Assembly (NCBI RefSeq): GCF_016820585.1
Contig: NZ_JADHDX010000003.1
Location: 1-64,000, forward strand
DNA: 64,000 nt
Direction of reading: 5' to 3'
Origin: Arthrobacter beigongshangensis
Lineage (GTDB): Bacteria > Bacillota > Bacilli > Bacillales_A > Planococcaceae
The notes under the pieces were generated by a model, which saw only the letters and a program-made list of their open reading frames with translations, did no database searches and was not told where the DNA came from. Numbering within the stretch: position 1 is the stretch's first letter; each line of letters begins with the position of its first letter. A program made the translations under genes and the position numbers. This document shows positions 6,274 to 27,429 of the stretch, in pieces.

Positions 6274-6345
6274 ATCAGCAAAGCGGTTCCACCGATTCAA
6301 CCTAAAAGCCTCCGACGGATGTCACAAATTTCGACGAGGCGAAAT
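6270..6345. repeat. Three-hairpin intergenic repeat, copy A (short form) between menH and menB
   Basis: Hairpin 1 is TTGAATC (6270-6276) with GATTCAA (6294-6300) and an inner CGGT/ACCG. It is followed by the family signature GCCTCCGACGGATGTCAC (6308-6325), which here runs straight into tcgacGAGGC. The long second hairpin seen in copies B to E is missing. The menH stop codon is part of hairpin 1. Confidence 0.75.
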
Positions 6346-10052: not shown

Positions 10053-10243
10053 TATTTTCATTCAGCAGAAGACTCCACCACTATAGGTGGCGAGGTGAAT
10101 GCGATTTTGTTTCCCTGTTCAGTGGGTGTCCAAACGCCTGCTGAATGAAAATAGAGCCTCCGGCGGATGTCACAGATTTTGAAAGGAGTTAATTGCGCAA
10201 GCGCAATTCAAAATCTGGACGCAATCACGCCGAGGCGCGATTG
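10053..10243. repeat. Three-hairpin intergenic repeat, copy B (full length)
   Basis: Hairpin 1 is a perfect 16-bp pair, TATTTTCATTCAGCAG (10053-10068) with its complement at 10138-10153. The signature GCCTCCGGCGGATGTCA starts at 10156. Hairpin 2 pairs CAGATTTTGAA (10173-10183) with 10207-10217 and has an inner AATTGCGC/GCGCAATT. Hairpin 3 pairs CAATCACGCC (10222-10231) with GGCGCGATTG (10234-10243) with one mismatch. It fills most of the 341-bp gap between yidD and the zinc-binding lipoprotein gene. No other gene is visible in that gap. Confidence 0.9.
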
Positions 10244-10289
10244 ATTTTTGGGCAAAGAAAAACGGCCGGCAATGATGCCGAACCGCGCT

Positions 10290-15161: not shown

Positions 15162-15293
15162 ATTAACTTGATTCAGCAGAAGAACCCCTGCTGAATCAAG
15201 TTAATGCCTCCGGCGGATGCCACAGATTTTTTAAAGGAATTTCTCGAGCAAGCTCGAGAAAAATCTGGGCGCAAATACGTTTGCAACGTATTT
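15162..15293. repeat. Three-hairpin intergenic repeat, copy C, between pckA and the metK promoter
   Basis: Hairpin 1 pairs ATTAACTTGATTCAGCAG (15162-15179) perfectly over 18 bp with 15188-15205. GCCTCCGGCGGATGCCA follows at 15206. Hairpin 2 pairs CAGATTTTT (15223-15231) with 15259-15267 and has an inner TTCTCGAGC/GCTCGAGAA unlike the other copies. Hairpin 3 is AAATACGT/ACGTATTT (15273-15293), also with a different sequence but the same position. It ends 22 bp before the metK -35 box. Confidence 0.88.
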
Positions 15294-15315
15294 ATATGCA
15301 AAACATCAAAATTAA

Positions 15316-15360: not shown

Positions 15361-15499
15361 ACTCTTATCCCGAGCTGGTGGAGGGGTCAGGCCCTATGAA
15401 ACCCGGCAACCTGCAAAGACCATGTTGTCTACGCGAAGGTGCCAAACCTGTAGCAAGGTATTTATCTGGGTACAGATAAATATTTTGGATGATAAGAGT
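15361..15499 (+). ncRNA. SAM-I (S-box) riboswitch aptamer
   Basis: P1 is ACTCTTATC (15361-15369) with GATAAGAGT (15491-15499). Between them are the S-box hallmarks: CCGAGCTGGTGGAGGG, GGCCCTATGAAACCCGGCAACC and AAGGTGCCAAACCTG. By established S-box knowledge, S-adenosylmethionine binding favours the downstream terminator, so metK is shut off when its product is abundant. Confidence 0.97.
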
Positions 15500-15520: not shown

Positions 15521-15562
15521 GCCCTTCACTCATGTAGTTAATACGTGAGTGAAGGGCTTTTA
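15521..15562 (+). terminator. SAM riboswitch expression-platform terminator
   Basis: GCCCTTCACTC / GTGAGTGAAGGGC followed by TTTTAT. The T-run forms part of the left arm of repeat copy D (TTTATCTTTGTT, 15558-15569). Confidence 0.9.
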
Positions 15563-15693
15563 TCTTTGTTCAGCAGGCATACAATACTTGTTAAACAAAG
15601 ATAAAGCCTCCGGCGGATGTCACAAATTTTGAAGGGAGTTAATTGCGCGAGCGCAATTCAAAATTTGGACGCAATTACGCCGAGGCGTAATTG
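15558..15693. repeat. Three-hairpin intergenic repeat, copy D, inside the metK leader
   Basis: Hairpin 1 pairs TTTATCTTTGTT (15558-15569) with AACAAAGATAAA (15594-15605). GCCTCCGGCGGATGTCA starts at 15606. Hairpin 2 pairs CAAATTTTGAA (15623-15633) with 15657-15667 and has an inner AATTGCGC/GCGCAATT. Hairpin 3 is the perfect 10-bp CAATTACGCC/GGCGTAATTG (15672-15693). The copy lies between the riboswitch terminator and the metK start codon, so it is transcribed in every metK message. Confidence 0.9.
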
Positions 15694-15826
15694 ATTATAT
15701 GATATCGCCCTTTATCCTCGTGTATAGAGCTCGCAATGGCTTGCAGTTCCTTTCCCTATAGGAATGGGACTCTACATGGGACATATGAGTACCGTATCAA
15801 TCTCGTAGGATATAGGAGGAACTAAC
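15694..15826 (+). other. Remainder of the metK 5' leader
   Basis: About 130 bp between repeat copy D and metK. It holds a weak hairpin (TCCCtataGGAATGGGA region) and the metK ribosome binding site TAGGAGG at 15809-15815. I see no reading frame or known RNA here. Confidence 0.5.
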
Positions 15827-18784: not shown

Positions 18785-18920
18785 TTTATCTTCATTCATC
18801 AGGTTTTCAAATGCCTGATGAATGAAGATAAAGCCTCCGGCGGATGTCACAAATTTTGAAAGGAGTTAATTGTGCCTTGCATAATTCAAAATTTGGACGT
18901 AATTACGCCAAGGCGTAATT
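18785..18920. repeat. Three-hairpin intergenic repeat, copy E, between ytoA and ytpA
   Basis: Hairpin 1 pairs TTTATCTTCATTCATCAGG (18785-18803) perfectly over 19 bp with 18814-18832. GCCTCCGGCGGATGTCA starts at 18833. Hairpin 2 pairs CAAATTTTGAA (18850-18860) with 18885-18895; its tip is degenerate (tgtgccttgcata). Hairpin 3 is AATTACGCC/GGCGTAATT (18901-18920). The copy ends 13 bp before the ytpA ribosome binding site. Confidence 0.9.
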
Positions 18921-18947
18921 TATTGAATAGATAAGGGGCTGATGTCC

Positions 18948-26999: not shown

Positions 27000-27352
27000 C
27001 TTTTCTTGATGTAGTTTTGGTTGGCATCGGTGGATTTTTAGGTGCTGTAATCCGTTATGTGACGACGAAAAAGATGAATCATACTGTCGGCATTCCTGTT
27101 GGGACATTGGTTGTCAATTGGTTCGGTGCGTTATTGATTGGACTCGTCTTTGGGCTGGAATTATCAAGCGGTTTGACGCTGTTGCTGGCATCAGGTTTTG
27201 CGGGTGCACTCACGACATTTTCCACATTACATAAAGAGCTGATTGAGCTGTGGAGAAATGGTAAGAAGAGATATGCTGTCTGTTATTTGTTGTTGACCTA
27301 TGGCGGTGGGCTGATACTCGCAGCAATCGGTTATGCAATCGGTAGTATTTAA
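26996..27352 (+). CDS. crcB: Fluoride channel subunit FluC/CrcB, second copy
   Basis: A 118-residue partner of the preceding subunit, with GGFLGAVIRYVTTKK, IPVGTLVVNWFGALLIG and GFAGALTTFSTLHKE. The different charge distribution at its ends suits the opposite membrane orientation expected of a heterodimeric pair. The ATG is in an ATGA overlap with the first copy. No fluoride riboswitch is visible upstream; expression seems tied to the helicase promoter. Confidence 0.92.
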   Translation: MTFLDVVLVGIGGFLGAVIRYVTTKKMNHTVGIPVGTLVVNWFGALLIGLVFGLELSSGLTLLLASGFAGALTTFSTLHKELIELWRNGKKRYAVCYLLLTYGGGLILAAIGYAIGSI

Positions 27353-27360
27353 CAGGGGAA

Positions 27361-27408
27361 ATGAAGTTCAATTCAAAATCTGGACGCAATCACGCCGAGG
27401 CTTGATTG
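27361..27408. repeat. Three-hairpin intergenic repeat, copy F (3' part only)
   Basis: Only the right arm of hairpin 2 (TTCAAAATCTG) and hairpin 3 (CAATCACGCC/GGCTTGATTG, one mismatch) remain, joined to GAAATGAAGTTCAATTC, which also occurs in copy G. Hairpin 1 and the GCCTCCGGCGG signature are absent. Confidence 0.8.
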
Positions 27409-27429
27409 ATTTAAAAAAGGATGAATAAA

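Follow-up and report, generated by a model that had tools for sequence, protein, structure and literature searches.

The repeat found in the leader of metK in Arthrobacter beigongshangensis is a copy of a non-autonomous, modular mobile element of about 100-250 bases, a reading that is well supported by empty sites in related DNA and by the fixed ends of the insert. The enzyme that moves it would be a Y1 (HUH) transposase. The observation from which the analysis started, that the repeat can fold in two ways, is correct; only one of the two folds is maintained in the comparison of copies.

We refer to the whole analysed stretch of 64,000 nucleotides as the window; its features are collected in the table. 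By sequence inspection, the SAM riboswitch of metK is followed by its terminator hairpin, TTTTATC, the left-end hairpin H1 and then the block with hairpins H2 and H3 that we call copy B. In the closest relative (G064) the same site is empty and reads GGGCTTTTTATATG, where the analysed genome has GGGCTTTTAT, the element and TATATG. The H1 stem is present in nearly all copies, with a very variable sequence, while the outer and inner stems of H2 enclose an asymmetric, purine-rich loop. A small ORF starting from TTG after this loop was rejected on inspection, because copies with CGTATTTG no longer have its stop. The segment GCCTCCGGCG can also be read as a GCC-TCC-GGC mini-hairpin, and in some copies it is a point of module insertion.

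Table. Copy B, its surroundings in the metK leader and further copies of the element in the window.
Feature	Position	Strand	Basis or remark
Copy with longer H1 domain	10056..10245	+	Covariance model R1, 115.7 bits; site occupied in G064 too
Diverged copy	15167..15295	+	R1, 75 bits; site empty in G064
SAM riboswitch aptamer, 5' of metK	15362..15498	+	Rfam RF00162, 58.9 bits
Riboswitch terminator hairpin and U-tract, host site of copy B	15521..15563	+	Sequence inspection
TTTAT, 5' target flank of copy B, within the metK SAM-riboswitch terminator U-tract	15559..15563	+	Empty-site comparison
H1/P1 of copy B, left-end hairpin (arm-loop-arm)	15564..15600	+	Within inserted DNA by empty-site comparison
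ATAAA, internal 'guide' pairing with the TTTAT target flank	15601..15605	+	Target:guide statistics
Copy B block, 90 bases, with H2, H3 and terminus TTGAT	15606..15695	+	
GCCTCCGGCG, upstream strand of the alternative pairing	15606..15615	+	
H2: outer stem CAAATTTTG/CAAAATTTG, inner stem AATTGCGC/GCGCAATT	15623..15667	+	
H3, local hairpin CAATTACGCC/GGCGTAATTG, right end of the element	15672..15693	+	
CGCCGAGGC, downstream strand of the alternative pairing, within H3	15678..15686	+	
TTGAT, conserved 3' terminus of the element	15691..15695	+	
Copy D	18790..18923	+	R1, 101.7 bits
Shortened copy	27335..27410	+	Exact empty site GTATTTAA/TTAAAAAAGG in G064

Among the other copies of the window, the diverged one upstream of the riboswitch keeps H1, H2 and H3 with different sequence and has no partner for the alternative pairing (alternative probability 0.0 for 15206-15296); copy D carries, in G064, an extra hairpin within the GCCTCC-GGCG segment. 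A match to the core with one mismatch (GCCTCCGACGGATG, 6308-6321), unreported by the model, is a possible remnant. An Rfam search of the window returned the SAM riboswitch and tRNAs only, the repeat staying below the gathering threshold of any family.

The element is abundant. With a covariance model we count at least 138 copies in the analysed genome (E up to 0.01, at most 150 candidates scored), 131 in G014 and 115 in G064 (both at 1e-6); copies occur in 33 of the 61 genomes searched, all of one genus. The exact core is also present in Sporosarcina, Psychrobacillus, Lysinibacillus, Solibacillus, Metasolibacillus, Filibacter, Siminovitchia and two species named Bacillus. These names, together with the occurrence of copies across one genus, suggest that the analysed DNA comes from Sporosarcina or a genus very close to it. 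The 55 copies whose context could be tested are all intergenic by mechanical ORF calls, and 43 of them are co-oriented with the downstream gene. Co-orientation with replication is found for 100 of 147 copies in two genomes, a bias that fits lagging-strand insertion and is confounded by gene orientation. Plasmid and phage collections hold no match to the 90-nt consensus, and in the open-access literature we found the core sequence in no paper, nor any paper on such repeats in Planococcaceae.

Mobility is read most directly from empty sites. G064, with 93% identity over metK, served as the reference for comparing empty and filled sites. At about ten sites that are empty in one of the two genomes, the insert begins after a T-rich pentamer and ends in TTGAT, and apart from one or two ambiguous bases the target is not duplicated. 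Exact empty sites correspond to C23 27335, 171785 and 109202 and to G064 3059685; exact junctions (marked by slashes) include TTTAA/C..TTGAT/TTAAAA and TTTAT/..TTGAT/TATG. Where a left boundary falls in a T-run, its position is uncertain by one or two bases, and that of copy B at metK differs by two. The target 5' of the left end is mostly TTTAT, TTTAA or a register variant of these, and is seen in empty sites too. At the other end, 77 of 87 copies terminate in TTGAT: the flanking sequence diverges directly after it, and there the empty sites resume.

A pentamer immediately before GCCTCC is complementary to the target, even where the target is unusual (TTTC-, TCTAA). Over 87 copies, the five target:guide pairs comprise on average 4.6 Watson-Crick pairs, against 3.05 for shuffled guides and a maximum of 3.34 in 2000 shuffles, a match that might arise in part after insertion, through hairpin-templated repair or selection. 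As the guide is complementary to the target flank, target and guide together extend the left-end stem.

The metK leader is without an insert in most relatives; two other species (L168, L170) have independent-looking inserts at the same place, with empty sites in their neighbours. Three species thus carry different copies at one spot of the metK terminator (15559-15695 in the window), a possible insertion hotspot. Elsewhere (L007, C47, minus strand), a thiolase-like gene has an insertion at its 3' end: target and element supply the TAA stop codon, and the element stem reaches into the coding sequence.

We propose that the element most likely moves in single-stranded form, as IS200/IS605 elements do, the best explanation as a whole and one we hold with moderate confidence. 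It inserts on the 3' side of a T-rich pentamer, usually TTTAA or TTTAT, and does not duplicate its target; its internal guide is complementary to the target flank and so lengthens the left-end stem. A present or past Y1 (HUH) transposase would recognise the hairpins at the two ends. The alternative pairing would then persist mainly since both of its strands are conserved on other grounds, such as end recognition and module insertion.

Members of IS200/IS605 such as IS608 and ISDra2 share with the element hairpin ends and integration 3' of a short AT-rich target without duplication (PMC8612924), the target being chosen by complementarity to a guide (PMC8266576). The ISDra2 target motif, TTGAT, is moreover the element's 3' terminus. 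Unlike these insertion sequences, the element has no transposase gene; it uses TTTAA/TTTAT as a target and accepts modular insertions. The guide of IS608 lies 5' of the left hairpin, whereas that of the element lies 3' of it, and here target and guide extend the stem. In copies with a longer H1, the inner hairpin gives a weak, short match to end hairpins of IS605/IS1341-type loci in the genus (E = 1.7e-4 for L251 and 0.003 for L225; best reversed control 0.12), and the right end has no match to IS605 ends.

Compensatory changes in such a palindromic element could also stem from palindrome-perfecting DNA repair by template switching, with no RNA structure under selection. Hairpin-templated correction predicts just what is seen in the left-end stem, which is hypervariable yet nearly perfect; the conserved apex of H3, the fixed ends and the mobility are left unexplained by it. 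We consider repair unlikely as the explanation, and it is compatible with single-strand transposition rather than exclusive of it.

Turning to the folds, the sequences and coordinates given for them in the first-pass annotation are exact, and so is its claim of two mutually exclusive structures: CGCCGAGGC pairs with GCCTCCGGCG or takes part in H3, never both. The alternative pairing in copy B consists of nine Watson-Crick pairs with one bulged C. Mononucleotide shuffling of the upstream 60 nt reproduced a 9/9 match, with no more than a single bulge, once in 3000 trials, and a match of 8 or more 45 times in 3000. The complementarity is above chance for the sequence of copy B alone, with the caveat that all copies share one ancestor and that GGCG/CGCC is common to the H3 apex.

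Predicted energies of the alternative and local folds (RNA parameters) are -33.5 and -32.5 kcal/mol in copy B, -29.3 and -30.3 kcal/mol in copy D (18833), and -38.5 and -33.6 kcal/mol in the copy at 10156; the gaps of 1.0 kcal/mol in copies B and D are well inside the error of such predictions. Partition-function folding of 76 copies, the check proposed in the first-pass annotation, bears out the dual behaviour: with RNA parameters, the probability exceeds 0.5 for the alternative fold in 40 copies and for the local one in 35. With DNA parameters the balance shifts to the local hairpin, dominant in 45 copies, with the alternative dominant in 31. As modelled, both folds are real and nearly isoenergetic, and either can dominate across the copies.

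Such an exchange might act at the DNA level. The local hairpin pairs the TTG of TTGAT, and the alternative fold, in which the left part of the element opens the right-end hairpin, leaves TTGAT single-stranded; during single-strand transposition, the switch would thereby decide whether the right cleavage site is exposed, or would link the two ends. We view this proposal as rather doubtful.

Whether copies maintain both pairings can be read from their covariation. Alignment A1 holds 41 copies aligned by sequence alone; A3 holds 77 copies from the analysed genome and its closest relative, and its counts lean towards H3 because it was aligned to a model containing H3, though A1 agrees. A cross-species alignment (A2) was left out of the covariation test for the alternative pairing because its loci came from an exact match to the upstream strand. 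All these counts are inflated by the kinship of the copies, and repair can also yield covariation in palindromic DNA.

The two H2 stems are paired in 98.9% and 99.1% of cells, with compensatory change at 8 pairs (41 copies). H3 is paired in 93.6% and shows 33 two-sided changes in 77 copies, a count reached in 0 of 500 shuffles; in A1, too, its compensatory changes greatly exceed those of shuffles. For the alternative pairing, A3 contains 3 two-sided changes, which is the shuffle level, and A1 none above shuffles either; in 29 of 76 copies the central pair of its outer helix does not match. Of 108 copies, 7 have a replaced or interrupted upstream segment, four of these through a Bacillaceae-1-like module, and H3 stays. 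There are contrary signs: the H3 apex CGCC/GGCG is far more conserved than the H3 base, where most compensatory changes fall, and A7:T80 covary at three separate loci, a residual hint for the alternative pairing. Altogether, compensatory change maintains the local hairpin at the 3' end and does not maintain the alternative pairing.

These data bear on the suggestion that the overlapping pairings are either a regulatory RNA switch or a by-product of transposase ends. The comparison goes against the first part: 15 of 77 copies keep the local pairing and have lost the alternative, against 3 of the reverse kind (sign test p = 0.0075), the very pattern that the first-pass annotation had named as speaking against it. 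The second part gained from the empty sites and fixed ends. A cis-regulatory switch, in which a signal would drive the exchange of pairings in an mRNA leader and so alter expression of the downstream gene, draws on the near-equal energies in many copies, the complementarity beyond chance, the co-orientation with downstream genes, the place of copy B in the metK leader and the A7:T80 covariation. Set against it are the lack of overall covariation for the alternative pairing, the frequent mismatch of its central pair and the replaced upstream segments; moreover, no common class of downstream gene is seen, and terminator or start-site sequestration is tied to neither fold. We judge it improbable. 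Since covariation supports H3 only and the alternative is lost or replaced in copies, a ligand-style RNA switch is unsupported: at best there is weak support for a switch, and the element is probably not a ligand-sensing switch. Given the near-equal energies and A7:T80, the alternative fold may have some role.

The analysed genome contains no intact Y1 transposase gene and a single decayed one; its assembly is in 49 contigs, so a copy may have been missed. Y1 genes are absent from copy-rich G016 and G031, intact ones occur elsewhere in the genus, and covariance model R1 places no copies near Y1 genes. Within the 1.8 Mb of DNA searched, no long, autonomous form that encloses a gene was found. 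TnpB is loosely related to copy number and absent in copy-rich G027, G031 and G032. With no intact Y1 gene and the guide on the other side of the hairpin, we file the element as IS200/IS605-like, a working term, and claim no membership.

A domesticated RAYT (TnpA-REP) protein mobilising a REP/BIME-type repeat was the other Y1 candidate. Like REP/REPIN sequences, which are linked to a Y1 protein, the element is a high-copy intergenic palindrome; many genomes of the genus have a RAYT-like Y1 gene of ~200 aa in single copy, and the Y1 relic of the analysed genome is of this type. The element differs from REP/REPIN in being longer, three-part and without a recognised tetranucleotide signature of the GTAG type, and its copy number does not track the RAYT-like gene. 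Where this gene is intact, genomes mostly have 0-5 copies (exceptions: G009, G021, G027, G035), whereas G016, G031 and the analysed genome are copy-rich without one; no copy lies near RAYT-like genes. On these misfits the gene was rejected as mobiliser, and we assign the reading a low probability. At L041 (G000:C2:119393-119605), a decayed RAYT-like Y1 gene is found between direct copies of a CCGGTRCCAGTCAYTCA.. sequence.

Group II intron-type reverse transcriptases also combine target pairing, lack of duplication and a preference for terminator T-runs. Insertion of a structured RNA by such an enzyme would suit the terminator U-tract sites, the 5' flank pairing and the RNA-like structure, but it is very improbable, as many insertions lie away from terminators, the ends are not intron-like, and group II maturases, without a match in the analysed genome, G064, G016, G021, G028 and G031, were rejected as mobiliser for their absence from several copy-rich genomes.

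The element is also a host to other sequences. At least 18 of the 28 Rfam Bacillaceae-1 RNAs (RF01690) of the analysed genome are nested in copies: 12 fall within covariance-model matches, and at least six more were recognised on reading the DNA (L254, L255, L257, L262, L264, L266). The Rfam family, in this genome, is therefore partly a mobile-element module. Its 67-nt two-hairpin motif is an optional part of the element, sitting in H1, at the GCCTCC-GGCG segment or in H2; the family covers the module alone, and at the gathering threshold Rfam does not contain the host element. Copy B has no match to RF01690 at that threshold, the motif being an insert in other copies. The paper that introduced Bacillaceae-1 lists it only as very likely to be an RNA, found in Bacillaceae (PMC2864571).

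Two stand-alone Bacillaceae-1 RNAs, L258 (C1:139609-139675) and L259 (C12:314933-314999), have GGAGGTG ends that directly abut a possible start codon, and thus seem to supply a ribosome-binding site; one of the genes that follow looks like recO. Within H1, another small hairpin, TGTACTGAAAGCGAAGCGTCAGCTACA, occurs as an insert at differing places (L013, L026, L027, L040), and hairpins of the type AAGGAAGGATGCAGTTCAACCCTTCC are inserts in element loops (L255, L267, L101) that are also found elsewhere.

By description, the element resembles the bcr repeats of the Bacillus cereus group, intergenic sequences of Bacillaceae with a predicted RNA structure. Streptococcus pneumoniae BOX, likewise compared by description, is small, intergenic, non-autonomous, strongly folding and able to join riboswitch leaders; its modular growth parallels the Bacillaceae-1 inserts (PMC3049150). 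Unlike the element, BOX has target duplications and terminal inverted repeats.

The lesson for structured repeats is that two isoenergetic folds can mimic a switch while comparison backs one alone. For part of the orphan Bacillaceae-1 family the analysis gives a new reading, that of a plug-in module carried by a mobile element in these bacteria, which matters for the search of its function. With well over a hundred copies per genome and empty sites beside them, the element forms a natural series, from which the rules of single-strand transposition (target, guide and ends) are therefore readable in genomes.
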